A stretch of 64,000 nucleotides of DNA from Colwellia sp. PAMC 20917 (GTDB lineage: Bacteria; Pseudomonadota; Gammaproteobacteria; Enterobacterales; Alteromonadaceae), in NCBI RefSeq assembly GCF_001767295.1, contig NZ_CP014944.1:992001-1056000 (forward strand). Direction: 5' to 3'. Numbering within the stretch: position 1 is the stretch's first letter; every line of letters starts with the position of its first letter. A program made the position numbers and the translations under genes. A model generated the notes under the pieces. That model did no database searches. It was not told where the DNA came from and saw nothing but the letters and a program-made list of their open reading frames with translations. Below are positions 10,240 through 45,050 of the stretch, one piece after another.

Positions 10240-10350
10240 TAATTCGCGGCCTTAATAAATAATCTTTTATATATGTGAACAATATTAACTTAATTGTATT
10301 TGTGTATAGTCATTTAAGCAAAATTTGAAGTAATAAATAAAATGACTATG

Positions 10351-11603: not shown

Positions 11604-11667
11604 CCTATTAAGAAGGAGGAAGCGTCTCGAACAAAAACTGTACAAGTTGTTATGGGGGGCTATTAAG
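11574..11667. repeat. imperfect tandem repeat of about 53 bp carrying the REP border
   Basis: GAACGAAAACTGCATGTG followed by TTATTATGGGTGGCCTATTAAG is repeated as GAACAAAAACTGTACAAG followed by TTGTTATGGGGGGCTATTAAG. The same arrangement occurs in copy B near 23747-23838. Confidence 0.65.
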
Positions 11668-11810
11668 AGATTTTGTGATTATTTGGTCAGTGAACGCTAT
11701 TCGAAAAAGCAGACATTTAAATGTTTCGTCTTGCACAGCAGCAAACCAGTCAGAGGGAAAACAGATACCCTAACTGGCATTTACAGTAACCAATAGTAAT
11801 GCATTTTGGG

Positions 11811-12440
11811 CTATTTTACTTCAATTAACACTTCGTTGTGGCGAAGCCATGGGATAGTGAAAGGACCATTGTAGGCTGCGTTAATAGGCTCGCTAACTGC
11901 GGTATAGCCGTTTTTCGCAATCCAGTTATTAAGGATTTGGGTTTGTGTTTCAACATTACTATCACTGAGTAGCCCGCTGAACTTTATCACCACGACTTTG
12001 TAATCCTTTACTTCTGTTATCCATACGTCTGGATTGGTTGGCTTAGGGGTACTTTGTATTGTAAAGTCGGCAGGCATTACAAATGACATTACTTGTTGTT
12101 CTGATCGCTCTTTCATAAACACCGGAGCGGTCATAGTGATTTTGGTCCCCTTAGATACTGCCTCTGATTCATCCATCAGTACAGGTGCTGTCATGGCTAT
12201 TTCTGTGGAGCCTTCATTCTCACCAGTAATATATCTGAACAGATTCCTGAAAGCACCGTTCATTCCGTCGGCTGACATGTCGGAGGACACTAGCACTAAC
12301 GATTCATAGTTACGCACTTCAATTTTCTGTACCTGATCAGATTTCAATAGTGTATAAGGCGCGTTTTCAACTCCACTTTCTCCAAACACGGAGCAACCGG
12401 CCAAAATAAGTGGAACAAGAAGTGTGAAAAGTAATTTCAT
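11811..12440 (-). CDS. SOUL-family haem-binding lipoprotein, copy A
   Basis: A 209-residue protein. The N-terminus has lipobox LAGC (Cys15), so it is likely membrane-anchored. The body is a SOUL haem-binding domain: PYTLLKSDQVQKIEVRNYE, two EIAMTAPV/KITMTAPV segments, and a C-terminal YNGPFTIPWLRHNEVLIEV. The family is known for haem or tetrapyrrole binding; its bacterial role is poorly defined. AAGGAAA precedes the ATG. The near-identical copy at 23977-24606 differs at roughly ten residues. It lies between the transposase and the right end of the Tn7-like element, so it is transposon cargo by position. Confidence 0.88.
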   Translation of the reverse strand: MKLLFTLLVPLILAGCSVFGESGVENAPYTLLKSDQVQKIEVRNYESLVLVSSDMSADGMNGAFRNLFRYITGENEGSTEIAMTAPVLMDESEAVSKGTKITMTAPVFMKERSEQQVMSFVMPADFTIQSTPKPTNPDVWITEVKDYKVVVIKFSGLLSDSNVETQTQILNNWIAKNGYTAVSEPINAAYNGPFTIPWLRHNEVLIEVK

Positions 12441-12633
12441 AGAATTTCCTTGAGGTCTTATAAAACAGTGTTTCTCACTGTTTTAATTTTTTATTTAGAC
12501 TAGATACGTAAAACTGGGAAATTAGTTCAATTCAACATTAAATTTTATCTTCAATAAAACCTTTTGGTTACCGTTGATTAGAGCTGAATTACAAGAAAGC
12601 CGATATCGGCTCTCTTTTCTAACCGTAATAAGT

Positions 12634-12665
12634 AAAAAGGCGAATCATTGCTGATTCGCCTTTTT
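12634..12665. terminator. terminator inside right end, copy A
   Basis: A near-perfect hairpin AAAAAGGCGAATCA / TGATTCGCCTTTTT, duplicated at 24801-24832. It works in either direction and isolates the SOUL gene from transcription entering through the right end. Confidence 0.8.
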
Positions 12666-12670
12666 AAATT

Positions 12671-12715
12671 TCACAAACTTAATTAAACTTTCACAAACTT
12701 AATTAACAGATGACA
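12671..12715. mobile_element. Tn7-like right end of the left-hand element (element A)
   Basis: Two 20-bp-spaced copies of TCACAAACTTAATTAA (12671-12686 and 12691-12706) lead to the tip CAGATGACA. Read inward from the tip this is TGTCATCTGT, then TAATTAAGTTTGTGA. Closely packed sites at one end are typical of Tn7 right ends. The assignment rests on pattern, not on a matched reference. Confidence 0.65.
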
Positions 12716-12720
12716 ACAAA
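12716..12720. repeat. putative 5-bp target-site duplication (ACAAA)
   Basis: It separates the right-end tip (12715) from the left-end tip (12721). The matching 5 bp beyond the other right end (24901-24905) is TCAAA, 4 of 5 identical. Tn7-like elements duplicate 5 bp. Confidence 0.5.
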
Positions 12721-12885
12721 TGACAACAAGTAATTAAAATTGTGACTAGGCAGTTCTCTTTTTCATATACTTAGCTCAGTACAAAAATGAATTAAGTTTG
12801 TGACTAAACTAACTTTTACTCAATTTTAGTAAACCAACATTAGTAATTAAATTTGTGACTGAAAATTAGAGTTCAAGTTTTGACT
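12721..12885. mobile_element. Tn7-like left end of element B with spaced TnsB-type sites
   Basis: The tip TGACAACAAG is followed by TAATTAAAATTGTGAC (12731-12746), GAATTAAGTTTGTGAC (12789-12804), TAATTAAATTTGTGAC (12844-12859) and a degenerate fourth copy (12869-12885). The tip plus first site aligns without gaps to the inverted right end (TGTCATCTGT then TAATTAAGTTTGTGA). Widely spaced sites at one end and packed sites at the other is the Tn7 pattern. Confidence 0.7.
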
Positions 12886-13475
12886 CTATTTAGCTCTTTA
12901 ACCATATTGATAATACCTAATCATTGATGATGCCCTATCAATTTCAAATGTACATAAAGTAACTGAAACGCCATTTTAGTTTTTGGCTAAAAGCTTTTAC
13001 TTAGTACAAATACTCTAAGGTGCTAACGCCCCCATTGTGAGATAGAAACTAACCATCACTTTCCACATTGAAGACCTATTTTATAGGTCAAAATCACCTA
13101 CTCTAATGTTCACTTAGATACGATAGCGGACATTAATGAATTCAAGAGTAAAGACTCCTCCGTGCGCTAAGTGGAATAAAAATGTTGAAATTGTTTGTGT
13201 TTGTCGAGGTCAACTGAGCATCAGTTAGTTGACCTCGACAAGTCAACAGTGGAATTAAAAATAATTTAAAAAACGCCACATGGCTTTATATGTAGTTTAA
13301 TTGTCTCGTTAAGCAAGGTTGTTTTGTATGTAAGTTAATCTCGTGTGCTTTGATTGTTAATAACCTATTAAATAACGAATTAGTTAGTGAATATGACTTT
13401 TTATTAGATAAATACTATATTATAATTCACTAATTTAATGATAGCTAAATTAGCAAACCCTAATAAAGGAATGTG
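12886..13475. other. intergenic inside element B, with inverted repeat
   Basis: 590 bp between the left-end sites and the chemoreceptor gene. No gene is apparent. It contains the 15-bp inverted repeat at 13201-13241, listed separately, and the AAAGGA box of the next gene. Confidence 0.5.
13201..13241. repeat. perfect 15-bp inverted repeat
   Basis: TTGTCGAGGTCAACT (13201-13215) and AGTTGACCTCGACAA (13227-13241) surround an 11-bp loop. There is no T-run afterwards, so a terminator is unlikely. It could be a regulator site or the scar of a small element. Confidence 0.75.
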
Positions 13476-15014
13476 ATGAGTCACACCTCAAATAACGAAC
13501 AAGTTTTCTCGGAAACTCAGCAATTAGTTTCTCTTACCGATCTCGATGGTAGAATAACTTACGCGAATAAGGCGTTCTGTGAAATTGCCGGATACTCTCT
13601 TGATGAACTCGTTGGACAACATCACAATATAGTGCGACATCCATCAATGCCTAAAGCTGCTTTTGCTGATTTATGGAGTAAACTTAAACAAGATAACTCT
13701 TGGCGAGGCATGGTTAAAAATCGTTGTAAAAATGGTGATTACTATTGGGTCGATGCCTACGTAACCCCCGTCTATGAAAATGGAAAAGTTATTGGCTATC
13801 AGTCCGTTAGAACATTGCCGAGTCACGAGCAAAAACAAAACGCTCAACAGCTATACGATACCCTGAACAATGGGCGTTCAGTCTCAGGTTTAGAGACTAA
13901 CGTTAACCTGAGAAGGTTATTTGCTATTGTTCTCATTACTCTGGCATCTTTTGGTGTTTGGGCATATACAAGTTCAATCGTTCCATCTATCATGTTGCTA
14001 ATTTTTATCGCTTTGCTTTCTCTGGTTTTTTCACCCGAACTGTTCACCTTTCCAAATTATGTCACGACCACGAAAAAACTATTTGATAGTCCGTCACGTC
14101 TAATTTTCTCGGGAAAGGGAGCATTGGGTATTATCGCTTACCCTCTCGAATTATATAAAGCTCGGATAAGAACAATACTAGGACGAAGTCATGATTCCGG
14201 ACAGGAACTGGTAAGGCTTGCTACTAAATTACAGAGCGCTTCAATAGAAATGCTCGAAAGTATAGAAGAAGAGAACTCACATCTTGCACAATTTGCAACC
14301 GCGATCACTGAAATGAGTGCGACGATTGCTGAAGTCAGTTTAAATACCAATCAGACACATGACAAAGTTTTAATCGTACAAAACGAATGTCGGGAAAATA
14401 TCAATGTTATCGAAATCAGCCAAAACAAAATTAATTGTTTGGCGGATGATGTTGAAAAAGCTGCCAGTAATGCGCTTGAATTGGTAACCGATGTCAATAA
14501 AATTTCAACGATCATGTCTGAAATTCAGGGAATCGCGGATCAAACAAATTTACTTGCCTTAAATGCTGCAATTGAAGCGGCAAGAGCGGGTGAACAGGGT
14601 CGAGGTTTTGCTGTTGTTGCCGATGAAGTAAGAACTCTTGCGAGTAGGACTCAGGGAGCAACAGTTCAGATCCAAAGCTCAGTAACGGAATTACAAAAAA
14701 CGTTAGAAAATTGGAGTCAGGTGATGCTTGCTAGTAAAGCTAATGCCGAAGAATGCTCTGAAGATAGCACTAAAATAAAACAAGCCATGGAAAATATTAT
14801 TGACAATGTTAATGATGTTAGCGATATGACAGCTCAAATTGCAACGGCGGCTGAAGAGCAAAGTGTTGTTGCCAATCAAATAACGCATAGTGTTCATACC
14901 ATAGATGATCTTTCTAAGAAAAACACCATACTTGCTTCGCAAGTTAATAACTATGGAATAGCCGTAAATAAAAGTGCTGAAGACATAGGAAAACTAAGTA
15001 CAACCTTTAAATAA
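13476..15014 (+). CDS. PAS-domain methyl-accepting chemotaxis protein (Aer-like)
   Basis: 512 residues from the ATG at 13476, preferred over GTG 13473 because AAAGGA lies 5 bp upstream of it. The order is: PAS domain of the Aer type (about 15-115, with [15 protein letters not shown] and [13 protein letters not shown]), two hydrophobic segments (about 148-190), then a cytoplasmic signalling module. The hairpin tip is [20 protein letters not shown] followed by [14 protein letters not shown] (about 355-390). There is no periplasmic domain, so it likely senses redox or energy state through a PAS cofactor, as Aer does. No C-terminal CheR/CheB tether pentapeptide is seen. The next gene, 15 bp downstream, carries a closely related PAS domain, so they probably work together. 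Confidence 0.9.
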
Positions 15015-15029
15015 GAAACCCTTACACTT

Positions 15030-16580
15030 ATGATAATTGAACTCATCAAGGCTACAGCTCTACTAATGTCACTTTGTTTATTACAAAGCTTTACCGTTCG
15101 TTTTATAAAAAAAAATGGACTTATAAAACAAGTAGTGTCAGGGGGGATTTTTGGAGGGATTTGCATTATAGGCATGATGCTGCCAATTGAAATTAACCCA
15201 GGAGTCATTTTTGACCCCCGTACGGTAGTCCTGAGTATGGCGGGCTTATTCGGTGGCCCAGTCGTTTCAGTTATTGCTGCTGCCCTTACAGGTGGCTATC
15301 GGTTATTTCTTGGTGGTGGGGGCGTTTATGTTGGTGTTGCAGTCGTTATCGCATCTACCTGCCTTGGTTTAGGTTATCGTTATTGTGTTCATAAAGGCTT
15401 GATGAAAGTTAACATCATACAGCTCCTGTTATTTGGCCTTTTGGTGCACGTTGTCGAAGTACTATTTATTACTCAGCTACCAGCAGATGTTGTTGTGGGG
15501 TTAGTGTCATTGATTGCTTTTCCGCTCATTTTTGTTTTTACACCCGCTACAGCATTCCTAGGCATGCTTTTAAAAGACGTTGAAGACCGTATTAATACAG
15601 AGCAGGCATTAAGTAAAACACTCGATGATTTTGATAGGAATGTTATTTTTTCAAAAACAGATTTAACAGGAAAAATAACGCATGCTAGCAAAGCATTTTG
15701 TGAAATAAGTGGTTTCGAATTGAATGAGTTGGTGGGACAATCACATAGTATCGTAAGGCATCCAGATACGCCTTCATCAGTATTTGAAAACTTATGGAAA
15801 ACAATACAGCAAAAAAAGAGTATCCACATTGTATTGAAAAATAAAAAGAAATGTGGGGGACATTATTGGGTAGAGTCCCAAATAGAACCTGAATTCGATT
15901 CTGATGGAAAGCATATTGGATATATAGGCACAAGATTCGATATTACAGATAGAAAAGAAATCGAACAACTCCACGAAGAAATAGAAGAAACTCAGCGTGA
16001 AGTTATTTTCAGGATGGGGGAAATTGGTGAAACTCGTAGCAAAGAGACAGGTAATCACGTAAGAAGGGTTGCTGAGTATTCAAAGTTGTTGGCTCTTTAT
16101 TCTGGTTTAGGTGAAGATGAAGCAGAGCTTATCAAACAGGCGAGTCCAATGCATGATATTGGAAAAGTAGGCATACCCGATGCTATCTTAAATAAGCCAG
16201 GTAAACTTGATGCTGAAGAATGGATAATCATGCAAACACATGCGCAGATTGGTCGTGATATGCTAATGGACTCATCAAGACCACTTCTAAAAGCGGCAGC
16301 TATCGTAGCTTATGAACATCATGAGAAGTATGATGGTAGTGGCTACCCGCAAGGTCTTAGTGGCGAAAGTATACATATATACGGGCGTATAACGGCATTG
16401 GCCGATGTGTTTGATGCTCTTGGTAGCGAACGTTGCTATAAAAAAGCATGGGATGAAGAAAAAATATTCAACCTATTTAAAGATGAGAAAGGAAAGCACT
16501 TCGATCCCAAGTTAATTGATATATTTTTTGATAATCTAGATGAGTTTTTAGCTATTAGGGATAAATTTAATGATAGCTAA
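15030..16580 (+). CDS. 5TM-PAS-HD-GYP cyclic-di-GMP phosphodiesterase
   Basis: 516 residues. The N-terminal membrane domain (about 1-182) is the 5TM-5TMR type, with NPGVIFDPRTVVLSMAGLFG and the AALTGGYRLFLGGGG segment. A PAS domain follows (about 200-308; LVGQSHSIVRHPDTP), strongly resembling the PAS of the chemoreceptor before it. The C-terminal HD-GYP domain (about 325-510) has H375-D376 and HHEKYDGSGYP at 430-440, all key residues intact, so it should hydrolyse cyclic-di-GMP. Start: ATG at 15030 with no strong ribosome-binding site, so translation may be coupled to the gene upstream. By position it is cargo of element B. Confidence 0.9.
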   Translation: MIIELIKATALLMSLCLLQSFTVRFIKKNGLIKQVVSGGIFGGICIIGMMLPIEINPGVIFDPRTVVLSMAGLFGGPVVSVIAAALTGGYRLFLGGGGVYVGVAVVIASTCLGLGYRYCVHKGLMKVNIIQLLLFGLLVHVVEVLFITQLPADVVVGLVSLIAFPLIFVFTPATAFLGMLLKDVEDRINTEQALSKTLDDFDRNVIFSKTDLTGKITHASKAFCEISGFELNELVGQSHSIVRHPDTPSSVFENLWKTIQQKKSIHIVLKNKKKCGGHYWVESQIEPEFDSDGKHIGYIGTRFDITDRKEIEQLHEEIEETQREVIFRMGEIGETRSKETGNHVRRVAEYSKLLALYSGLGEDEAELIKQASPMHDIGKVGIPDAILNKPGKLDAEEWIIMQTHAQIGRDMLMDSSRPLLKAAAIVAYEHHEKYDGSGYPQGLSGESIHIYGRITALADVFDALGSERCYKKAWDEEKIFNLFKDEKGKHFDPKLIDIFFDNLDEFLAIRDKFNDS

Positions 16581-17190
16581 CCAGCAGAGCTTGCTGTATG
16601 ACTCTGAATGGCTATAACGTACCTGCTCACTTTCATCCAAACTGAACTAGCACCCTCCCATCATTTAAACTAATGCAGCTAAATGAGTGCTATATCCGAT
16701 AAAGTTGTCGCGAGATGTTAAAGATTAATAATGGTTCTATAGTGATTTTAGCGTTTTAATTTATTACGAACAGGTCAACTATTACAGCGTTCAACGGAAG
16801 TATTATTGTCGCTGTGTAACTTTTTAAGTTAGCGCCCAGTTTAATGACGAATGACCGTTTTGTGGCTTAGTTGTCTGCCATGGTAAAGGTAAACCTAGGC
16901 CTTCTAAACACTGCAAACAGATAAAAAATCTATTGATGGTAATGTCCGCTTAATTTGTGTTTGAATCAAGAATTAGGTTCAAGTAGTGCTAAAAACTTAC
17001 CTGTTTGACCCAAGAAACCTTTATTAATTTGGTTTAGCATGCATTACTAGTAGGTAAATATTCAGAAACACAGCAATATTTTATATGTGAGAATAATATT
17101 CTTGAAAAAACTATCAGATAATAAATTCAAATTCATTTATTATCATGAAGCAACTATGCTTTTAAAATGGAAGAATTCCCTAATTAACGT
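16581..17190. other. intergenic, no gene seen
   Basis: 610 bp between two signalling genes. All frames are short and broken, and no RNA gene or terminator with a T-run was recognised. It is presumably promoter DNA plus remnant sequence. Confidence 0.45.
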
Positions 17191-18684
17191 ATGAAAATAA
17201 ATACCCAAACAATTTTTCTTGTTGAACATGTAGCCGAGTGGAATGATGCCATCTTATCGATTTTGCATGAATTGAAGTTTGAAAATATTCAAATATTCAA
17301 TAGTTCTCATACTGCATTTGATGCTTTTGTTAAGAAACAACCAGATTTAATTATCTGCGATTGGTATACAGGTAAAAGTAACTCTCTGGAGTTTCTCAAA
17401 AAGGTAAGAAACCATAGTGTTGCACCTGATACTCCATTTATAATGGTGTCAGGTATCATAGAGCAAATTATGATTAAACAAGCTGTTGCAATTGGTGTTA
17501 ACGAATATATTGTAAAGCCATTTAATACTAAAATTTTTAAAGATAAAATTGATCATGCCCTGAAGTTTGGACGACTAGGTAAAACTAAAAAAGCTAAGAG
17601 TGAATATTTTAAGACCAAAATAGCAGTATGTAATCAAAAAGGAAGCATATTACGGGTTATTAAAGATAGCTTTGAAAACTATCAATATGAAGTATTTCAA
17701 GATTTGAAGACAACTATCGAACAAGCCAAAACGGACAAGTTCCTTGATATATTAATCATCGATGAACATACTATTTATACTCACAGAGAAACACATAAAT
17801 CACTTTTAAAATTAATAGCTACAGGGCAAATTGAAGTAGTAATAATCAGAAATATTGATATAAACAAAGAAGTCTACAGCACATTAAAAGCTATTGGCTT
17901 TAAACATTTTGTATATCCATATATAGATTCACAAGATATCAAGACGAAAGTAGACTTATTGATAGAACTGAAAAAAGCGTTATTACAAACAAAAGATACC
18001 GTTAAACAAGCAACAGTTGAAAAAGATAATGAATTACAGCAACAATTATTACAATCTATTAAGCTTGAATCCAATAATATAGGTAAGCTTGGAGAAAAAA
18101 TCATTTCCTCATCAAAAAAATCCAGTTTTATTAATCAGTTAGCTCAAGAAATCAGTGATAATAGCAAAAGCATAAATTCTATTACTGAAGCAATAGCATC
18201 GACTGCTATGAGCATAAAGGAATTACAACAGAGTTCTAAAGAAAAAATATCAATTTCTGATCTTTTTAATAACACCAATAAAGTTTTTGCTCACTCATTA
18301 AAGCAGAGGAAACTAACGATTAACTTTTCTTCACGAGAATGTAAGTACTTAAAAGCAAACCCAACCCTATTTTCTAGTTTATTTATGTTTATAATTAAAG
18401 CGTTAATAAAAGACGTCAAGTTTGAAAGTACGTTGTATATTAGTGTCAGTGAAGAAAATAATAATCAATTTATTGAGATGGAAATAGTAGTCAGCATGAC
18501 TGGTTATCCTCACTTAGAAGATATAATGGAACGTGTTTGGTTTAACAAAGATGGGGAAATACAGTTTGAATTAAAAAATACAATCAAGGAATTATCCGAC
18601 TCTCAGTTAACAAAATATGAGTTTCGTTTTGATCAAAGAAATGGTTTGTTTACCGCTGTACTCATTGTTCCCAAAGACACTTAG
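17191..18684 (+). CDS. response-regulator-like protein with two receiver-type domains
   Basis: 497 residues. Residues 6-120 form a receiver domain with phospho-acceptor D57 (LIICDWYTG), S87 and K109 (YIVKPFN). The N-terminal acidic pair is reduced to a single Glu (LVEHV), so phosphorylation chemistry may be altered. Residues about 140-255 look like a second, degenerate receiver fold (FLDILIIDEHTIYTH). A helical, Gln-rich coil follows (260-330). The last 120 residues are placed like a kinase ATPase domain, but the N and G boxes are not recognisable. It is 25 bp from the following HD-GYP gene and likely controls it. Function is otherwise unassigned. Confidence 0.75.
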   Translation: MKINTQTIFLVEHVAEWNDAILSILHELKFENIQIFNSSHTAFDAFVKKQPDLIICDWYTGKSNSLEFLKKVRNHSVAPDTPFIMVSGIIEQIMIKQAVAIGVNEYIVKPFNTKIFKDKIDHALKFGRLGKTKKAKSEYFKTKIAVCNQKGSILRVIKDSFENYQYEVFQDLKTTIEQAKTDKFLDILIIDEHTIYTHRETHKSLLKLIATGQIEVVIIRNIDINKEVYSTLKAIGFKHFVYPYIDSQDIKTKVDLLIELKKALLQTKDTVKQATVEKDNELQQQLLQSIKLESNNIGKLGEKIISSSKKSSFINQLAQEISDNSKSINSITEAIASTAMSIKELQQSSKEKISISDLFNNTNKVFAHSLKQRKLTINFSSRECKYLKANPTLFSSLFMFIIKALIKDVKFESTLYISVSEENNNQFIEMEIVVSMTGYPHLEDIMERVWFNKDGEIQFELKNTIKELSDSQLTKYEFRFDQRNGLFTAVLIVPKDT

Positions 18685-18709
18685 GTCTCTAAACTTTCAA
18701 GGTTGAATT

Positions 18710-19327
18710 ATGGAAAACCGTACATTATATCAATTAATTAATACTATAAGCGCTGCAATTGAAGCTAGAGATTTTTATACATCAGTTCACCAGAATAGAG
18801 TTTCAAATATTGCTCGACTAATAGCTCAAGAACTTCAGTTACCTAAAGAGCAAATAGAAAATGTCCGGCTTTCTGGGATTTTACATGATATTGGTAAGTT
18901 AGGAATTCCTACAGCGCTCCTTTCTAAAGCAGGAAAGCTAAGGAAAGAGGAGTTTGAGTTAATAAAGCAGCAATCCGTAATCGGTGAAGAAATCCTAAAA
19001 CATATAGATTTCGCTTTTCCTCTTGCAACTATTGTTCGGCAACATCATGAAAGGATAAATGGATCTGGTTACCCCGATGGTCTATCAGGAAGTGATATAC
19101 TACTAGAGGCTAGGATTATCGCTGTAGCAGACGTTGTTGATTCAATGACCTCATCAAGAGCATATAGAGGAGCATTAGGCTTGTCTGCTGCTATGGATGA
19201 GCTCAATAAGAATAGTGGTATTTTATATGATTCGGAGGTTGTAGATGCCTGCTGCCAACTCTATAAGAACAATAAAATTAACGACTTGCACTCAAATGAT
19301 ATATGGGGAAGCTCCAGAAAGCAGTAG
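18710..19327 (+). CDS. stand-alone HD-GYP domain phosphodiesterase
   Basis: 205 residues, essentially only the HD-GYP domain. H59-D60 lies in ILHDIGKLGIP, HHERINGSGYPDGLSG is at 112-127, and the ARIIAVADVVDSMTS metal region follows. All catalytic residues are present, so cyclic-di-GMP hydrolysis is expected. AAGG lies 7 bp before the ATG. It has no receiver of its own, so the response-regulator-like protein just upstream is the likely input. Second HD-GYP gene in the cargo of element B. Confidence 0.9.
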   Translation: MENRTLYQLINTISAAIEARDFYTSVHQNRVSNIARLIAQELQLPKEQIENVRLSGILHDIGKLGIPTALLSKAGKLRKEEFELIKQQSVIGEEILKHIDFAFPLATIVRQHHERINGSGYPDGLSGSDILLEARIIAVADVVDSMTSSRAYRGALGLSAAMDELNKNSGILYDSEVVDACCQLYKNNKINDLHSNDIWGSSRKQ

Positions 19328-19710
19328 TGATGCACTCTCAGTTGGCAATCAAATTCAATTTTGTGGAAAACGCTCTTCGAATTACGCTAAGAGTTAAAGT
19401 TCATTACTTAAATTCTAACGACTACTTTTAGCTGAAAATTGCCTCACAAAATAACAGAGCATTTCCCTAAGTGCTGAATGGTTTCACAAAAGTTTGGTAT
19501 TTTTTATGTTCAGATTTACCGTAATGCTCGCAAAGTCAAATATCTGCTTATTAGAACAATTTAAAAATAAAGACAACTAACCGTATAGCTGAGATTGGCA
19601 CTGAACGGCCCCACAAACTTTTCTAATGACCGCTTTTGGCTAGGAGCGGAACAAAATGGGGTTAAAGATCCTAAGGCGCTATGTGCCCCGTAGTCATAGG
19701 ACAAAGAAAG
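19328..19710. other. intergenic, convergent, no gene seen
   Basis: 383 bp between the HD-GYP gene (+) and the small gene at 19711 (-). No clear hairpin with a T-run and no coding frame was recognised. Confidence 0.45.
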
Positions 19711-20025
19711 TTAAGTCAGCTTTTTGACGAGATAAATGTCTCTCATATTTTTGTGTTCACTGAAAGCATCATTTAGGTATCTTTGAATTTTTTGTTCAAA
19801 GTAATCCATATCTTTTTCATACCGGCAATGAAACCCGATAACTAGCTTCCCATCTTCATCATCTAACTTTGCACGTATATCATTAAGCCCACCATCAATT
19901 GAAAATTGACCGGAAGATAAATCAACAACTCCCAGCGCATTAAAACAAGTTCGGCTAATATCATCTAAGATAAGGCACACATTCTTAGCATCTTTGACTA
20001 GTATTCTAGTAGGTAAAATAGGCAT
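19711..20025 (-). CDS. hypothetical protein, 104 residues
   Basis: Not recognised. The start chosen is the ATG at 20025 because GGAGA lies about 6 bp upstream; an in-frame ATG at 20037 would add four residues. The protein is soluble, acidic in the middle (KLDDEDGKLVIGF) and ends in a basic YLVKKLT. The pattern of short beta-strands (RILVKDAKNVCLILDD, GKLVIGFHCRY) suggests a compact alpha/beta fold. It follows the HigA-like gene by 42 bp on the same strand, so the two probably form one unit, possibly toxin-antitoxin-like, but nothing in its sequence identifies it as a toxin. Confidence 0.6.
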   Translation of the reverse strand: MPILPTRILVKDAKNVCLILDDISRTCFNALGVVDLSSGQFSIDGGLNDIRAKLDDEDGKLVIGFHCRYEKDMDYFEQKIQRYLNDAFSEHKNMRDIYLVKKLT

Positions 20026-20067
20026 AAGAGTCTCCATTAGTTTTATTTTAGTCTAATCATTATTACG

Positions 20068-20445
20068 CTATTCAAAACCGCCATTTTCAATGAGATCAAC
20101 ATATTCCAGCAATACTCCAGCTTGCCCTGTTTGACACAATTCTACTGGTGTTAAATTGCCACAGGACGGGATTTTGTAGTGTTCAAACCAGTGGATAGCT
20201 AAAACATTACAACCTGACCAAGACATAAGTTTAGGGAACAGTTTGTTTTGCTGTTCTTGAGTAAATAGATGCCCAAAGCGTGAGCTAAGCTGTGCACACA
20301 TCTCTGGTCTGCTTGCTTCAAACATCCTCACTTTTTCACTAAGTTTTCTAAGATTATCGATAGAGCCAGCCTCAGATAACTTTCCCCATAATCGCTCAAT
20401 ACGTTCAAGTACGGCTATTAGTTCTTGCTCATTTTTTATCATCAT
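20068..20445 (-). CDS. small protein with HigA-like N-terminus, possible antitoxin
   Basis: 125 residues from the ATG at 20445, chosen because GAGGT lies just upstream; the longer frame from 20526 would overlap the TniQ gene. The N-terminal MIKNEQELIAVLERIERLW resembles the start of HigA-type antitoxins. The C-terminal LTPVELCQTGQAGVLLEYVD recalls the toxin-binding tail of the MbcA/ParS/Xre (DUF2384) group. No helix-turn-helix was confirmed. It sits between the TniQ gene and the 104-residue gene, all on the minus strand. The antitoxin assignment is inference from these resemblances. Confidence 0.55.
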   Translation of the reverse strand: MMIKNEQELIAVLERIERLWGKLSEAGSIDNLRKLSEKVRMFEASRPEMCAQLSSRFGHLFTQEQQNKLFPKLMSWSGCNVLAIHWFEHYKIPSCGNLTPVELCQTGQAGVLLEYVDLIENGGFE

Positions 20446-20473
20446 TTCAACCTCATAGGTTAGCTGTAATTGG

Positions 20474-21934
20474 TTATTGTCCTTTGTACCTATCTTTTCT
20501 TGGTATTGCTTTGGGTAAAGTTTCATAAAGCCATGCTTTATCGTGTTTAAAAAGCCAGGTATAAGAAGCTCTGGCTAATTTTTGTAGGTTACCCCTGGTG
20601 ATGCCAGGGTCTTTTGTGATTAAGCCTAAAATACACTTTCTGTGGCATTGCTGAAGTTTGAAATAACGTAAGTTTGTCCGAATGGTTTTTATTGCAGGGT
20701 GTTGAGTCAGAACTTGCTCTACAGCCGCAGTTGAACATTTCATCTTTGCCGCTATTTTTTCTGTAGAAGTGCCTTTTTTCAACATGCTTTTAATCTTGCT
20801 ACGCTCTGGAGAAAAAATACGTTGTGCTCGCGTATTTATTGAAATACTTTCTTGGATGGCGATGTTCTTTACAAAAGTAACACTAACACCAAAGCCTTTA
20901 GCTACAGACCTTAAGCTAGCACTAGTCTTTAATTGCTGAATAATTTTTAGCTTCAAATTGTTAATACGTTGAAACGCACTTTGCTTTGGCTGAACCTTCA
21001 TTAAATCAACCGCATTTCTGAAGCTAAATTGAGGGTCATGGTAGCAACTAAAAAATTCATTCAATGAGCCAAATAAATATCCAATAATGAGTAAGTGCTT
21101 TACTGGATGGTGTTGTGCATGAGGCTGATAAATCAAGCAAGTTGGAAAAGAAGTAGAACTACGTTGCTCAATTAACTGCGAACTTAACTCTGTGGATAGT
21201 GAGCCTTCCCAATACTGCTTTATATTTTCAAACCATTGGGCTTGCCTGATTGAACCCGTATTTGTACTTAACTCATGAGATACAAGTCTAGCTAGGTAGC
21301 ACTCGACTAATCGAGAAAGGTTTAAAGAATCATTTCCCTGTTCAAGTAAGTCCTGACTTAATTGAGCAAAAAGGTTTACACGCTCAGGTATTTCGAATCC
21401 TACTAGCTGTAGCTCCAGAGTTTGTTCAGGAAGGAGCAACGCTCGTCTATTGCAGGTTTTACTCACTAACCATTGTTGATGTTCAATACAAATAACCATC
21501 CAAGGTAATTGGTGATTGATATGCCAATACGCAACTCCATAAGTGTTGATATCATTGATGGCACAAACAGGGCAATACTTAAGCTGTTTAGCACACTTTA
21601 ATCGATTGGCGGTCAATGATAGTTGACTATGTAATTCCTTAGCATTTCCTTGCAATAAGTACGAATAGGTTTGCTCGGCAACCTGTGGATTTAAAAAGGC
21701 TTTGAGATATGAAAATAGCGTGTGTTGTTCGATAAGCACTTGAGCGCTTACCTGAGTTTCTTGTGCTAATTGAGGAATAAAGCTTGGTAGCACTGCAGAT
21801 AACTGACAATGTGCACTACCAATAAACTCTTGAAGAAAATCTCTAGATGATGGATATCCACTTAACAGCCTAGAGCGCACCAAATAACTATATAACGTTT
21901 CATTCGGATATAACTCTAGGCTGAAGGACTTCAT
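20474..21934 (-). CDS. TniQ/TnsD-family transposon target-selection protein
   Basis: 486 residues. The N-terminal ELYPNETLYSYLVR is a typical TniQ opening. A CCCH zinc site is formed by C121, C124, C149 and H152, the spacing reported for Tn7 TnsD. PVKHLLIIGYLFG is a TnsD-type segment. Two helix-turn-helix-like stretches follow (SLRSVAKGFGVSVTFVKNIA and STEKIAAKMKCSTAAVEQ). TnsD proteins bind a fixed chromosomal site and recruit TnsC/TnsAB there. The ATG follows the TAA of the truncated gene directly (TAAATG), so the pair was translationally coupled. By position its target should be the gcvP 3' end; that is inference. No TnsA, B or C is encoded in this window. Confidence 0.85.
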   Translation of the reverse strand: MKSFSLELYPNETLYSYLVRSRLLSGYPSSRDFLQEFIGSAHCQLSAVLPSFIPQLAQETQVSAQVLIEQHTLFSYLKAFLNPQVAEQTYSYLLQGNAKELHSQLSLTANRLKCAKQLKYCPVCAINDINTYGVAYWHINHQLPWMVICIEHQQWLVSKTCNRRALLLPEQTLELQLVGFEIPERVNLFAQLSQDLLEQGNDSLNLSRLVECYLARLVSHELSTNTGSIRQAQWFENIKQYWEGSLSTELSSQLIEQRSSTSFPTCLIYQPHAQHHPVKHLLIIGYLFGSLNEFFSCYHDPQFSFRNAVDLMKVQPKQSAFQRINNLKLKIIQQLKTSASLRSVAKGFGVSVTFVKNIAIQESISINTRAQRIFSPERSKIKSMLKKGTSTEKIAAKMKCSTAAVEQVLTQHPAIKTIRTNLRYFKLQQCHRKCILGLITKDPGITRGNLQKLARASYTWLFKHDKAWLYETLPKAIPRKDRYKGQ

Positions 21935-22507
21935 TTAGATATGCCTGTTTGATATTGACTCTACACCAAAGAACCTTAACCAAAGTAATACACTTATCGG
22001 TGGCCAATTTCTCGCTTGATAGCGACCAGCATCGATACTGAGCACCCTTTCATCAACTGCAAGCTCTGGTTGTTTAAAAAACACGGATAAGCCGTTACTA
22101 AATAACCAGTCTTTAAACTCATTTTGCAAACTGTCTGCAAGGTAGATAGGCGCTTTTCTGGAGATGCTTGAAGCCTTAGCAAAAAAGCCTGCAACTCCAT
22201 TTTTCATTTGGTGACTATATTGTGGCGAACTCAGCGTTCCTTGCTGTTTAAGAAGTCGCATACTATTTTCAAGGAGCCACTGGGTATGCTCATTTAACGC
22301 ATATGTTTTAGGCGCTATCTTTGCACTACATACAGGACACTTATCATCGACTGGAGGGACTGAATGATTTCTGATATCTGTATAGCTAAAACCACAATCA
22401 TGACATCCTTCACTCAATATTTGGTGATGGTGCTGATAACAAGTAATAGCCGAGGGTAATTGATGGGCAACATGCCAAAAGCTTGTACCACTTCTCAAGT
22501 TATCAAG
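21935..22507 (-). pseudogene. 5'-truncated second TniQ/TnsD-family gene
   Basis: An open frame of about 190 codons with no proper start: an in-frame TAG lies at 22508-22510, and the REP border of the RAYT unit begins at 22524. Its first residues (TSFWHVAHQLPSAITCYQHH) align with residues about 134-153 of the intact TniQ (VAYWHINHQLPWMVICIEHQ), so it begins in the middle of the zinc site and lacks roughly the first 130 residues. A second zinc pattern (CHDC...CPVC) follows. The gene was cut where the duplicated RAYT-SOUL block joins. It was probably the first of two coupled TniQ genes. Confidence 0.8.
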
Positions 22508-22523
22508 CTAACAAATAATTATG

Positions 22524-23776
22524 CCACCCATAATAACTTCAAATAATAATGATAAGCCATTGCTTGTCTTTTTAGCTTATAACAATACCTATTGATAAGG
22601 TAAAGCGAGTTTCTATAGTCCTTTATCGCAACTACTTTCTTCAAACATCAAATGATAGCCGAGTTAAACCCACCACTCTAAAAGAGTAGTACGATTACGC
22701 CTTATTCATAAAAAACGTTATGCGCTATTCAAGCAAGCCTGAGCATTCGCTATACCATGTGTTCGCTGCAAACCAACATGCTCACTAAATTCACATAAAT
22801 GCTCAGCAGTACCGACAGCGCCTGTGAAGATAGTTTCAAAATCCGTCGTAAGCTTTAGCCAACTTTCATCATTGATGTGTAACCTCGCGAGAATATTTAC
22901 CGTCGTCGTGTCGATGGCGCCACGTTTATCACGCAGGAGGCGTCCTGTTTCATCAACCAGTGTTAAGTAATCTTGTAAGCTAAAATGAATACCAGCGCCA
23001 GTTGATTTTTGATGGGATTCATTGCCCGTAAAGGGTAATAAGCAGGTCGGTTGCTCACCGGTTATAGCCGCTTTAATGCGTCGTTGAATACTGGTGAAGT
23101 CAGACTGCTCTGGGGTAACCGCAATACCTGCTCGTATAGGGTTTAAATCAACATATGCCATACACGACAGTAACGCCCCTTCATCAAGCAGTGCTTGTGA
23201 TTTAAAGCGCCCTTCCCAAAAGTGCCCGGTACATTGGTCTTCTCGGTTAGCTTGTCGGGCTATCGGCTCGTTCAATGAGCGCATAAACCAACTGATATCA
23301 ATTAAACGCTGCTTATAAATCTCAGCCGTACTTTCAACCGTCGCTAGTTGACACTTATCAAGCGGTTGTTTGTTCGAATATCTTTGAGTTAATAAGGTCC
23401 CTTTGAATAATTGATGCCAACGTTGCAATACCTCATCGGTTGACCAGCGCTCTATTGGCTCACTATCGACATGCAAGACAATATGTAAATGATTATGCAT
23501 GACAGCATAAGCACAGATATCTATCGAAAATACCTGAGATAATGTAAATAATCGCTTTTCAATCCATCTGCGTCGATGCTCGAAACTGACACCCGTCTCC
23601 TTATCTACGCCACACAAAAAAGCCTTGCGTACCGTGCGACTGCAAATGTGATAATAAGGTGTATCCAATAAACTAATTTGTTGTGAACGAGGCTTAGGCA
23701 TAACAATCACCCGACTGAATAAAGGTAACTTAAGTCTAGTTTATTGAACGAAAACTGCATAAATTATTATGGGTGG
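22524..23776 (-). mobile_element. REP-associated tyrosine transposase unit, copy B
   Basis: Bordered by CCACCCATAATAA (22524-22536) and its inverse TTATTATGGGTGG (23764-23776), with a second degenerate border near 23819-23833. Same organisation as copy A. Confidence 0.65.
22718..23701 (-). CDS. REP-associated tyrosine transposase (Y1/HUH family), copy B
   Basis: Same length and motifs as the protein at 10545-11528 (HNHLHIVL metal motif; WEGRFKS; YVDLNPIRAG), differing at only a handful of residues. The reading frame is intact. ATG 23701 is preferred to the in-frame GTG 23710, with GGGTGA as ribosome-binding site. Both copies staying intact suggests recent duplication or selection to keep the protein. 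Confidence 0.88.
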   Translation of the reverse strand: MPKPRSQQISLLDTPYYHICSRTVRKAFLCGVDKETGVSFEHRRRWIEKRLFTLSQVFSIDICAYAVMHNHLHIVLHVDSEPIERWSTDEVLQRWHQLFKGTLLTQRYSNKQPLDKCQLATVESTAEIYKQRLIDISWFMRSLNEPIARQANREDQCTGHFWEGRFKSQALLDEGALLSCMAYVDLNPIRAGIAVTPEQSDFTSIQRRIKAAITGEQPTCLLPFTGNESHQKSTGAGIHFSLQDYLTLVDETGRLLRDKRGAIDTTTVNILARLHINDESWLKLTTDFETIFTGAVGTAEHLCEFSEHVGLQRTHGIANAQACLNSA

Positions 23777-23976
23777 CCTATTAAGAAGGAATAAGTGTCT
23801 CGAACAAAAACTGCATAAGTTATTATGGGGGGGCTATTATTGTGACTATTTTGTCAGTGAACGCTATTCGAAAAAGCAAACATTTAAATGTTTCGTCTTG
23901 CACAACAGCAAGCCAGTCAGAGGGAAAATAGATACCTTAACTGGCATTTACAGCAACCAATAGTAATGAATTTGGG

Positions 23977-24606
23977 CTATTTTACTTCAATTAACACTTC
24001 GTTGTGGCGAAACCATGGAATGGTAAAAGGACCATTGTAGGCTGCGTTAATAGGCTCACTAACTGCGGTATAGCCGTTTTTCGCTATCCAGCTATTGAGG
24101 ATTTGGGTTTGTGTTTCAACATTACTATCACTGAGTAGTCCGCTGAACTTTATCACCGCGACTTTGTAATCCTTTACTTCTGTTATCCAGACGTCTGGGT
24201 TGGTTGGCTTAGGGGTACTTTGTATCGTAAAGTCGGCAGGCATTACAAATGACATTACTTGTTGTTCTGATCGCTCTTTCATAAACACCGGAGCGGTCAT
24301 AGTGATGTTGGTCCCCTTAGATAATGCTTCTGATTCATCCATCAGTACAGGTGCTGTCATGGCTATTTCTGTGGCGCCTTCATTCTCACCAGTAATGTAT
24401 CTGAACAGATTCCTAAAAGCACCGTTCATTCCGTCGGCTGACATGTCGGATGACACTAGCACTATCGATTCATAGTTACGCACTTCAATTTTCTGTGCCT
24501 GATCAGATTTCAATAGTGTATAAGGCGCGCTCTCAACTCCACTTTCTCCAAACACGGAGCAACCGGCTAAAATCAGTGGAACAAGAAGTGCGAAAAGTAA
24601 TTTCAT
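23977..24606 (-). CDS. SOUL-family haem-binding lipoprotein, copy B
   Basis: 209 residues with lipobox LAGC (Cys15) and the SOUL domain features EIAMTAPV, NITMTAPV and YNGPFTIPWFRHNEVLIEV. It is nearly identical to the protein at 11811-12440; substitutions are mostly conservative (for example WLRHNE versus WFRHNE). AAGGAAA-type ribosome-binding site before the ATG. It lies between the RAYT and the right end next to gcvP. Haem binding is the family property; its role here is unknown. Confidence 0.88.
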   Translation of the reverse strand: MKLLFALLVPLILAGCSVFGESGVESAPYTLLKSDQAQKIEVRNYESIVLVSSDMSADGMNGAFRNLFRYITGENEGATEIAMTAPVLMDESEALSKGTNITMTAPVFMKERSEQQVMSFVMPADFTIQSTPKPTNPDVWITEVKDYKVAVIKFSGLLSDSNVETQTQILNSWIAKNGYTAVSEPINAAYNGPFTIPWFRHNEVLIEVK

Positions 24607-24800
24607 AGAGTTTCCTTGAGGTCTTATAAAACAGTGTTTATCACTGTTTTCATTTTTTATTAAGATTAAATACGTAAAACTGGGAAATTAGTTCAATTCA
24701 ACATTAAATTTTATCTTCAATAAAACCTGTTGGTTGCAGTTGACTAGTGCTGAATTACAAGAAAGCCGATATCGGCTCACTTTTCTAACCGTAATAAACC

Positions 24801-24832
24801 AAAAAGGCGAATCATTGCTGATTCGCCTTTTT
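24801..24832. terminator. terminator downstream of gcvP, inside right end copy B
   Basis: The hairpin AAAAAGGCGAATCA / TGATTCGCCTTTTT lies about 80 bp past the gcvP stop codon, so it is the likely terminator of gcvTHP although it sits inside the transposon end. Confidence 0.8.
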
Positions 24833-24837
24833 AAGTT

Positions 24838-24900
24838 TCACAAACTCAATTAATTTTTCAAACTTAATTAAACTTTCACAAACTTAATTAACAGATGACA
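24838..24900. mobile_element. Tn7-like right end of element B, next to gcvP
   Basis: Three packed sites, TCACAAACTCAATTAA (24838-24853), a shortened TTCAAACTTAATTAA (about 24858-24872) and TTCACAAACTTAATTAA (about 24875-24891), lead to the tip CAGATGACA at 24900. The tip is followed by 8 bp and then the gcvP stop codon (24909-24911, minus strand). Confidence 0.7.
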
Positions 24901-24908
24901 TCAAAAAA

Positions 24909-27800
24909 CTAGTCTTGATAGCTTTCAATTGGAGGACATGAACAAATTAAGTTACGGTCTCCGTATACATCATCGATGCGATTAACTGTTGGCCAAAATT
25001 TATTTTTGGCTGCAGCAGGAACTGGGAATACAGCTTCTTTAATAGAATAACCACGTTCCCAAGTATCAGTAATATCCGCTAACGTATGAGGAGCATTATG
25101 TAATGGATTGTCGTCACTTGACCATTCACCCGATTCAACTTTACGTACTTCGTCGCGAATAGAAACCATGGCTTCAACAAAACGGTCAAGTTCAACTTTT
25201 GACTCAGATTCTGTAGGTTCAATCATGAAAGTACCCGCTACTGGGAACGACATCGTAGGTGCATGGAAACCATAATCAATTAAGCGTTTTGCTATATCAA
25301 CTTCACTAATACCTGATGTGGCTTTAAGTGGACGTAAATCGATAATACATTCATGAGCAACACGACCATTTTTTCCTGCGTATAAAAGTGGGTAATGTTG
25401 GCTTAACTTTTTAGCTAAATAATTAGCATTAGTAATAGCATATTTAGTCGCATCTGTTACGCCCTGCTTACCTAGCATTGCACAGTAAAGGTAAGAGATA
25501 CATAAAATACCCGCACTACCAAATGGTGCTGCTGCAACGGCTCCATTGCCTTTAGTACTTTCATTAACGTTAATTAATGCATGATCAGGCAAAAATGGTG
25601 CAAGGTGTGCTTTAACGCCGATAGGTCCCATACCTGGGCCACCGCCACCGTGTGGAATAGCAAACGTTTTATGCAAGTTTAGGTGAGAAACGTCAGCGCC
25701 AATATAGCCTGGCGACGTTACGCCTACTTGTGCGTTCATGTTTGCACCGTCAAGATAAACTTGACCGCCATGTTCGTGAACGATGTTACAAATTTCTGCT
25801 ACTGTTGTTTCATATACACCGTGCGTTGACGGGTATGTGATCATAATACAGGCAAGATTGTCGGCCATTTCGCTTGCTTTAGTACGCAGGTCGTTCATGT
25901 CAACGTTACCTTCTTTATCACAAGCAACAACAACAACTTTCATACCAACCATTTGCGCAGACGCAGGGTTTGTACCGTGGGCAGAAGATGGAATTAAACA
26001 AATATTACGATGTGCATCGCCACGACTTTCATGATATTTAACAATCGCGATTAAACCCGCATACTCGCCTTGAGCACCAGAGTTAGGTTGCATTGAAATG
26101 TTGTCGTAACCCGTTAGTTCAACTAACCAATCGCCTAACTCGTCAATCATTTGCTTATAACCTTGAGCTTGGTCAATGGGTGAAAATGGGTGCATGTTAG
26201 CGAATTCAGGCCATGATACTGGGATCATTTGTGCTGTTGCATTTAACTTCATCGTACAAGAACCCAAAGAAATCATTGAATGGTTCAATGCTAAATCTTT
26301 GTTTTCTAATCTTTTGATATAACGAAGCATTTCTGTTTCGCTGTGGTATGAATTGAATACCGGGTGAGTCAATATTTCAGATTCACGTACTAATGCTGCA
26401 GGAATTGAAGAATGACCGCTACTGACTATTTTGTCGTCAAGGGCGCTAACGTCTAAACCATGGCCTGCGCCTAATAATATATCGAATAAACCAGCAATAT
26501 CAGTACGAGTCGTTGTTTCATCTAGAGAAATACTAATTTGACCCGCAACATCAGTGCGGAAGTTAACACCTGCAGCTAGTGCGCGTGCAACGATTTCTTC
26601 TTTATTATCTAAATTGAACGTTAAGGTGTCAAAGTAGTTAGCATGAATAGCTGTTAAGCCTTTTGTGGCTGTACCTAAGCATAAAATATCTGCGAAACGA
26701 TGAATACGATTAGCAATGATTTTCAAGCCCTTTGGACCATGATAGACCGCGTAAAACGCCGCCATGTTAGCTAAGAGTACTTGGGCAGTACAAATGTTTG
26801 AGTTAGCTTTTTCTCGGCGAATATGTTGTTCGCGAGTTTGCATTGCCATACGCAATGCAGCGTTACCACGGGTATCTTTAGAAACACCAATAATACGACC
26901 AGGCAATGAACGTTTGTATTTCTCAGAGGTAGTAAAAAATGCAGCGTGTGGTCCGCCGTAGCCCATTGGAACACCAAAACGTTGGCTTGAACCAATAACG
27001 GCATCGGCACCTAATTCACCCGGTGCTTTTAACATCACTAAACTCATGATATCGGCGGCAACCGCAACAATACCTTTGTTTGCGTGAATTTTTTCAATTA
27101 ACTCACTAATGTCTGTAATTTCACCCGATGCACTTGGGTATTGTAGCAAAGCACCAAAAACATCATGGTCAGCGGCTTCATGAGCAGGAGCAACGATAAC
27201 GTCAAAATCAAACATTTCTGCACGTTGTTTAACAACGTCGATAGTTTGTGGATAAACATCACTTGAGATAAAGAACAAGTTTGATTTTTTGTTTTTAGAA
27301 ACACGTTTTGCTAATGCCATGGCTTCAGCAGCCGCAGTTCCTTCATCTAATAATGAAGCAGAAGCTAGTTCAAGACCGGTAAGGTCGATACACATTTGCT
27401 GGTAGTTTAATAATGATTCTAAACGACCTTGAGCAATTTCTGGTTGGTAAGGCGTGTAAGCCGTGTACCAGCCTGGATTTTCTAACACGTTACGCAAAAT
27501 TACGTTCGGTGTTAATGTGCCGTAGTAACCTAAACCAATGTAGGTGTCGTTTACTTTGTTCAAGCTTGCAACCGCTTTTAAATCACTTAAGGCTTGCGCT
27601 TCTGTTTTACTTTCTTCAATCGCAGGCAATGCTGATAAACGAATATCACTTGGTACGATTTCATTGATAAGTGCGTCAACCGACTCTGCGCCAATGTCTT
27701 TTAACATCGCTTGAGTTTGTTCGGCATTAGGGCCAATGTGACGACGAATAAAGTCTTGAGTTTGCTCTAAATAAGCAAGTGATTTTGATTGAGTAGTCAT
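24909..27800 (-). CDS. gcvP: glycine dehydrogenase (decarboxylating), P protein
   Basis: 963 residues, a full-length homodimeric-type P protein. It decarboxylates glycine with pyridoxal phosphate and passes the aminomethyl group to the lipoyl arm of GcvH. The PLP-lysine segment [16 protein letters not shown] is present, as are the N-terminal FIRRHIGP and [10 protein letters not shown] regions. It is the last gene of gcvT-gcvH-gcvP, 243 bp after gcvH. Its 3' end abuts the right end of the Tn7-like element and is the presumed attachment site; the coding sequence itself is undisturbed. Confidence 0.97.
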
Positions 27801-44640: not shown

Positions 44641-45050
44641 GAAGTAATAGACACCTAGGGTTTGAGCTGGCTTTAGAAGCCTCTAAATTGATTTTTATCA
44701 ACCGCTTTTTCCATCGCATCTTGCTTAGTTATCAAGCCTCTATTCACTAGACCTTGAAGACAATAGACACCCATGGTTTGAGCTGGCTTTAGAAACCTCT
44801 AAATTAGAAACCTCTAAATTGATTTTTATCAACCGCTTTTTCCATCGCATCTTGCTTAGTTATCAAGCCTCTATTCACTAGACCTTGTAAGCAATAGACA
44901 CCCATGGTTTGAGCTGGCTTTAGAAACCTCTAAATTAGAAACCTCTAAACTGATTTTTATCAACCGCTTTTTCCATCGCATCTTGCTTAGTTATTAAGCC
45001 TCTATTTACTAGACCTTGTAGACAATAGACATCCATGGTTTGAGCTGGCT
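44641..45050 (-). repeat. three decayed tandem copies of the pilT 3' end
   Basis: The last roughly 115 bp of pilT (coding from about CLQGLVNRGL to NQFRGF) recur three times after its stop codon. The shared block GATTTTTATCAACCGC begins at 44690, 44821, 44952 and, within pilT itself, 45068: periods of 131, 131 and 116 bp. The 131-bp units hold an extra 15-bp repeat of the terminal FRGF codons. Copies carry stop codons and a changed upstream part (MGVYCLQGL instead of MDQCLQGL). Confidence 0.9.

Follow-up and report, generated by a model that had tools for sequence, protein, structure and literature searches.

Next to the gene gcvP of Colwellia sp. PAMC 20917 lies a 12,180-bp element, here called E2, that has ends of the Tn7 type and is followed on its far side by the right end of a second such element, E1, taken to be the older of the two. 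The stretch of genome analysed, referred to as the window, comprises 64,000 nucleotides (NZ_CP014944.1, positions 992,001 to 1,056,000), and coordinates are positions within it. The ends of E2, the junctions on either side and the transposition genes that it retains are arranged as follows.

12671–12685, − strand: E1 right-end site, exact motif
12691–12705, − strand: E1 right-end site, outermost, exact motif
12706–12715, − strand: E1 right-end tip TGTCATCTGT, the same tip as at the gcvP-side end
12716–12720: target duplication, left copy ACAAA, between E1 and E2
12721–24900: Tn7-like element E2, left end at 12721, right end at 24900 (gcvP side)
12721–12730, + strand: E2 left-end tip TGACAACAAG
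12731–12745, + strand: E2 left-end site 1, outermost, exact motif
12789–12803, + strand: E2 left-end site 2, 1 mismatch
12844–12858, + strand: E2 left-end site 3, exact motif
20474–21934, − strand: tnsD, 486 amino acids, TniQ and TnsD domains (target selector), intact and without internal stops
21935–22498, − strand: tniQ 3′ part, an open reading frame (ORF) of 187 amino acids, N-terminal part absent
24838–24852, − strand: E2 right-end site 3, 1 mismatch
24856–24870, − strand: E2 right-end site 2, 2 mismatches
24876–24890, − strand: E2 right-end site 1, outermost, exact motif
24891–24900, − strand: E2 right-end tip TGTCATCTGT, read from 24900 to 24891
24901–24905: target duplication, right copy TCAAA, 4 of 5 bases as in the left copy
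24909–27800, − strand: gcvP, 963 amino acids, its 3′ end taken as the attachment site

Ends and transposition genes of the element

An initial annotation, made from the letters of the window, had recognised the motif TAATTAA-N2-TTGTGA at 12731, 12789 and 12844 and, inverted, at 24838–24891, with gap-free 10-bp tips beyond the outermost copies and the packed end 8 bp from the gcvP stop codon. The motif copies are present at these positions, the tips TGACAACAAG and TGTCATCTGT align over 10 bp each without a gap, and the right tip at 24900 lies 8 nt from the stop codon (24909–24911). A degenerate fourth copy at the spaced end was not recovered on the + strand between 12859 and 13473 at up to two mismatches. 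The span of 12671–24908 given at that time does contain Tn7-type ends, but the element itself is shorter, positions 12671–12720 being the neighbouring E1 and a 5-bp junction. The right end of E1 (12671–12715), which had been overlooked, directly abuts the left end of E2 to form a tandem pair, and since the E1 right tip, five base pairs and the E2 left tip are contiguous, the bounds of E2 are set at 12721 and 24900. With left-end sites spaced by 55 and 58 bp and three packed, inverted sites on the right, E2 has the end geometry of Tn7. At up to two mismatches the motif has 20 matches in the window against 7.0 expected, a count reached in none of 100 shuffles, while the exact motif occurs five times in the whole 4.68-Mb genome, every copy at the gcvP locus, compared with two copies of the motif read backwards.

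The single TniQ/TnsD gene previously placed inside the element does lie there, but as two genes, tnsD and the 3′ part of tniQ. The TnsD protein matches PF15978 (E 1.3e-25), PF06527 (E 1.7e-18) and the solved Tn7 TnsD structure 8glu (E 2.3e-15), and the tniQ fragment aligns with residues 136–312 of the 326-residue TniQ of a relative, G270. No significant match to tnsA, tnsB or tnsC was found within the window, and the host genome has no close TnsB; the best match, 31% identical over residues 315–475 of 744 (E 1.1e-5), belongs to another locus. E2 is thus a defective Tn7-like derivative and not a complete member, tnsABC being absent. The same genome has two further TnsA-like genes (G000:C1, 2979–2985 kb, L070, and 2925–2932 kb, L071); that of L070 lies upstream of a hemE-like gene together with TnsB-, TnsC- and TniQ-like ORFs, as judged by eye.

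Related elements downstream of gcvP

Matches to TnsD were found in 73 of 295 genomes of the family, that of the window included. The relatives are at most 38% identical to the window TnsD over full length (43% over one fragment) and hence too distant for a scan with a single protein; such a scan of contigs returned 68 pattern stretches, none of them a relative by tblastn. Phage records gave no match to the window TnsD, and in plasmid records identity was below 27% among the matches listed (15 of 388). Linkage was checked in 34 of the 72 other family genomes with a TnsD match, chosen for the most part among the higher scores; gcvP was also located in four genomes found by a pattern hit. In half of the 34, TnsD and gcvP share a contig, with TnsD 3–38 kb downstream (G112, G021, G024, G155, G012, G270, G148, G276, G202, G129, G058, G103, G109, G122, G040, G046 and G294), and 16 of these 17 have tnsA, tnsB and tnsC matches in the same stretch, with queries taken from G270 and G021, which match themselves. 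The exception, G040, has a TnsD fragment only and no tnsABC match. Beyond the family, 37 genomes had a match; the best 23, which belong to six other families of the order, were checked, and 12 of them have TnsD downstream of gcvP.

The initial annotation had suggested looking beside gcvP for complete tnsABC elements with such ends, and tnsABC–tniQ–tnsD elements are indeed present directly 3′ of gcvP in relatives. In G270, gcvP is followed by a right end with sites of the type TAATAAAGTTTGTGA, nearly the same as those of the window, one large cargo ORF and then tnsA–tnsB–tnsC–tniQ–tnsD; its TnsB matches that of Tn7 (7pik) with E 4.5e-37. A cargo ORF of this element, L060:1741–3858, matches the candidate anti-phage defence family PDC-S06 (E 1e-277), and one of the gcvP element of G129, L086:14–1993, matches another, PDC-S56 (E 2.6e-239). 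G294 has a nearer tnsD with tns matches opposite to the orientation of gcvP and 3 kb away (C22:46868–48208), and a further set in the usual orientation.

Left ends were sought at 16 loci, and site clusters were found at seven: the window, G021 (spacings 55/58 bp), G202 (53/57), G129 (53/56), G024 (53/49), G276 and, weakly, G058. Target duplications were then compared in the window and the five relatives with both ends, G058 standing outside this set. All five have exact 5-bp duplications (G021, G202, G129, G024 and G276), the sequences found in the five being TTTGT, ATTGA, GGTTG, GTTTG and TGATT, and each has tnsABC and TniQ/TnsD between its two ends, the full configuration of a Tn7-like element. 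The outer left site of G276 was located through the inverted right tip, which makes this case less independent than the other four. Beyond the six left ends, the window's among them, further sites resembling right ends are visible by eye; five of the six have packed repeats there, and G021 has one site with a hairpin.

In most linked genomes the gcvP stop codon is followed by two or three packed repeats and then a hairpin, and the tip lies 5–12 nt past the stop in 12 tabulated genomes, assuming a 10-bp tip. The repeat sequence varies among genomes, with seven types by eye: TTTGTGA, TTTGAAA, TTGGAAAC, GGTTAA, TTTGGGAA, AAGTCGTTTA and TTAGACAAA. In ends of the last type (G148, G058, G040) one repeat doubles as an arm of the hairpin stem. 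Several end types are common to the gcvP site and elements are often stacked there; adjacent insertions can yield multiple ends, according to a passage of PMC8649781.

Packed repeats were found in 24 of 70 gcvP 3′ flanks (30 gcvP copies most like that of the window, itself included, and 40 taken as roughly every third of the next listed, with about 155 listed of 380 genomes with gcvP); for other ORF ends the figure was 3 of 479, and some 0.3% of 1400 shuffles attained that score. The linked out-of-family genomes have them in 10 of 12 cases at score 13 and 11 of 12 at score 12, G465 having its end at a greater distance from the gcvP stop; among unlinked ones the count is 2 of 11. The TTTGTGA-type packed pair occurs in 7 of 395 family genomes, with none for the backwards control. 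Besides the window, it directly follows gcvP in G328, G336, G251 and G323, is part of a stack in G129 and lies elsewhere in G225, where the packed end, of the same type, is at about 9979–10032 of L083 with no gcvP recognised nearby. In a collection of named genomes, which may leave out the window's own record, the exact packed pair gave seven stretches from six genomes. It is beside gcvP in two Alteromonas and one Rheinheimera, part of the stack in A. profundi and remote from gcvP in Paraglaciecola mesophila; the sixth genome is Psychromonas sp. Two Psychromonas sp. loci (L122, L124) have packed ends of the same type with no gcvP recognised nearby, and in L124 a left end directly adjoins a right end.

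Comparison with strains having an empty site had also been proposed. The same-genus genomes G025, G101 and G150 lack packed repeats, their gcvP stop codon being followed by a short spacer and a terminator, and a plain conserved spacer with a hairpin, resembling an empty site, is seen by eye in at least 12 other surveyed flanks. Terminator-like hairpins are present in 41 of 45 repeat-bearing gcvP flanks (a set mixing the survey with loci chosen for TnsD, in which G069 and G130 are counted twice) and in 36 of 40 gcvP flanks without repeats, compared with 11 of 300 control ORF ends. As hairpins occur in flanks of both kinds, insertion appears to replace the terminator that it displaces.

The linkage also follows TnsD phylogeny. 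On a tree of 31 proteins with 19 gcvP-linked rows, the unlinked rows including drafts where linkage cannot be judged, linkage requires two changes against a shuffled mean of 9.8, and none of 500 shuffles is as low. A branch with 100/100 support sets apart 13 linked rows and G195; the TnsD contig of G195 is too short to judge linkage, but similar repeats come after its gcvP (by eye). The window TnsD pairs with that of G021 (93/98), a genome that shares the TTTGTGA type of end site. Six TnsD proteins form a second linked group (90/86), which points either to a shared target of greater age or to a second origin.

Origin of the element and alternative explanations

Taken together, these data make it very probable that 12721–24900 is a defective Tn7-like transposon whose site-specific insertion placed its packed right end on the gcvP side, 8 nt beyond the stop codon of that gene. 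The earlier proposal of Tn7-like ends with the gcvP 3′ end as attachment site is supported by the linkage, the duplications, the packed-repeat survey and the TnsD tree. From their layout and the presence of TnsB in relatives, the repeats are likely to be TnsB-binding sites. By analogy with TnsD at glmS, TnsD would most likely bind the conserved coding end of gcvP and recruit TnsC and TnsAB, and binding at this point would give insertion its near-fixed distance and orientation. Successive elements would use the same site and displace earlier ones from gcvP, so that the right end of E1 comes to lie directly beyond the left end of E2. The hairpin, placed within the element after the right end, would let gcvP keep a terminator after insertion.

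The rest of E2 consists of cargo and a segment that is also present, in a second copy, to the left of the element:

10340–12720: E1 right-proximal segment and right end, copy 1
13473–15014, + strand: cargo, PAS and methyl-accepting chemotaxis protein (Pfam)
15030–16580, + strand: cargo, 5TM-LYT, PAS and HD domain protein (Pfam)
17191–18684, + strand: cargo, response-regulator domain protein (Pfam)
18710–19327, + strand: cargo, HD domain protein (Pfam)
22513–24905: right-proximal segment, copy 2, with REP transposase unit, SOUL gene, terminator and right end
22718–23710, − strand: REP-associated tyrosine transposase-like ORF, copy 2, at 41.3 bits under the family's curated cut-off of 80
23977–24606, − strand: SOUL heme-binding family protein, copy 2 (Pfam)
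24801–24833, − strand: intrinsic-terminator-like hairpin in the right end, placed so that it could end the gcvP transcript

The two small ORFs after tnsD (19711–20037 and 20068–20526) have no Pfam or NCBIfam match, the second having a weak match in G202 (E 0.001). Elsewhere in the window, self-comparison shows imperfect direct repeats of about 120–130 bp at 44642–45155 near two pilT-like genes, named by eye.

The segments 22513–24905 and 10340–12720 are 94.1% identical, and the border of the duplicated block is, by eye, a REP-like end of the transposase unit. The SOUL gene was considered as a native neighbour of gcvP, and this was dropped, a match being found in two of six same-genus genomes, the window's own among them. 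No left end was found for E1 when one was searched for. The loss of tnsABC and of the 5′ portion of tniQ from E2 would have come after insertion, most likely when a segment of a neighbouring or incoming element, comprising the REP-transposase unit, the SOUL gene and the right end, recombined in, with crossovers in the REP-transposase copies on one side and in gcvP on the other. Recombination through the duplicated copies may thus have removed tnsABC and given E2 the right end of E1, which would account for a target duplication that agrees in only four of five bases. In the same-genus genome G130 (L049, about 2230–2335 and 1080–1145) only a SOUL gene lies between a left end and a right end that differ in type, which looks like a recombinational swap of right ends leaving a transposase-less mini-element.

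Several observations weigh against a site-specific transposon at gcvP. TnsD and gcvP are unlinked in 17 of the 34 family genomes, lying far apart on one contig in G052, G075 and G247 and on different contigs of drafts in 14, and in 11 out-of-family genomes out of 23, of which G702, G498 and G558 have both on one contig at a long distance and eight have them on different contigs; such a long distance on one contig thus concerns six of the 28 unlinked genomes overall. At 9 of the 16 loci the search gave no left end and that of G058 is weak, and the window's own duplication (ACAAA and TCAAA) matches at four bases and not five. Packed repeats are also found remote from gcvP in Paraglaciecola mesophila (G225) and, within the 8-kb stretches read, in Psychromonas sp., where no gcvP was recognised. 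The route by which recombination would have removed tnsABC is reconstructed, and recognition of gcvP by TnsD is suggested by linkage and the tree. The initial annotation had held that repeats beside gcvP in relatives devoid of an element would speak against a transposon, and such cases are in part found: two exact packed copies adjoin gcvP in G251, where 30 kb contain neither a tns match nor a left end, and G328, G336 and G323, read over 10, 10 and 0.7 kb, likewise combine packed copies with a lack of tns matches. As repeats of the same kind pair with tns elements elsewhere, these are interpreted as solo or partly read ends.

The same four genomes would fit an origin of the repeats independent of transposition, as a regulatory or REP-like feature native to the gcvP 3′ region. 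Against this, the repeats vary in sequence from genome to genome (the seven types) and are missing from the same-genus G025, G101 and G150, and similar repeats are found at just 3 of 479 control ORF ends. Inverted spaced copies lie 12–51 kb away, and the exact duplications in all five relatives largely refute this explanation, which we consider highly improbable. A genomic island of the integrase type, using the gcvP 3′ end as its attachment site and carrying TnsD as mere cargo, is favoured by displaced fragments of that end in G025, G026, G477 and G558; a table of integration sites in plasticity regions of Photorhabdus and Xenorhabdus also lists gcvP, in a passage that gives no element type (PMC3091717). 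The genome of the window, however, has a single gcvP match and no second fragment, no integrase is found among the 10 element ORFs scanned with Pfam, smaller ORFs lying outside the scan, and the ends have Tn7 geometry while comparable elements hold tnsABC–tniQ–tnsD; there is little chance that such an island explains E2. The fragments (G025, L051:9798–10058; G026, C2:74612–74809; G477, C2:3016134–3016283; G558, C1:1748657–1748782) lie some 1.5–18 kb away from the intact gcvP and look as though another type of island carries a gcvP end of its own, and a second island type may share the gcvP hotspot in other genomes.

Insertion at gcvP might also be directed by a CRISPR guide rather than by TnsD, as some CRISPR-associated transposons (CASTs) target conserved genes through guides, according to a passage of PMC11406308. 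No Cas family was detected in the element ORFs (10 by Pfam, 5 window ORFs by PADLOC; CRISPR arrays were not searched for), the PADLOC Cas3 matches to the HD protein being weak (best E 5.3e-6). Relatives have both tniQ and a large tnsD, and linkage follows the TnsD tree, so that guidance by CRISPR is extremely unlikely. Returning to TnsD-directed insertion, we lean towards a broader account, with moderate confidence, in which the gcvP 3′ end would be a major Tn7-like site across the order, used by at least two TnsD lineages with many TnsB specificities. Elements whose ends are mutually unrecognised would escape target immunity and build ordered stacks, the newest next to gcvP and each bringing a replacement terminator; the window would contain one such stack, its newest element stripped of transposase by recombination.

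Relation to known systems and significance

Elements at gcvP share with Tn7 an end with three spaced sites opposite an end with packed ones, a 5-bp duplication (exact in the five relatives), a right end by the 3′ end of a conserved gene, a TnsD with a TniQ domain and, in the relatives, a TnsB homologous to that of Tn7. They differ in their target, which is gcvP instead of the glmS that defines Tn7 proper, and in having two TniQ-family proteins. Tn7 inserts about 25 nt past the glmS stop codon, whereas the tip at gcvP lies within the 5–12 nt given above, with the same assumption on tip length. The right end has two or three sites here and four in Tn7, as stated in a passage of PMC8649781. A comparable organization is that of the dual TniQ–TnsD loci in the survey of Faure et al. 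2023 (PMC10293859), in which a short tniQ and a tnsD of more than 400 amino acids follow tnsABC. Tn6230 (yhiN), Tn6022 (comM) and the I-F3 CASTs (signal recognition particle RNA, guaC/IMPDH, yciA, parE) are likewise Tn7-like with chromosomal attachment genes of their own, but these are other genes, and some of these elements use CRISPR guides or TnsF and not this TnsD clade (passages of PMC11406308, PMC6360697 and PMC10293859).

The spot downstream of gcvP is a recurrent Tn7-like attachment site that is apparently undescribed. The main text of the Faure et al. survey, whose supplements were outside our scope, does not name gcvP, nor do the main texts of PMC8649781 and PMC11406308, and gcv is absent from that of PMC6360697. 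In the open-access literature no Tn7-like site at gcvP was found, in agreement with the initial annotation, in which gcvP is not known as such a site; supplements, preprints and most subscription papers fall outside this search, so the novelty is provisional.

As a recurrent safe site, gcvP adds to the short list of attachment genes used by protein-guided Tn7 elements. Comparing the DNA-binding parts of this TnsD family could show how TnsD specificity is encoded and changed, and DNA insertion tools might gain a new landing pad, guided by protein, in the gcvP end. Where elements with differing ends are stacked at one site, they would amount to a natural record of target immunity excluding or sparing competitors.

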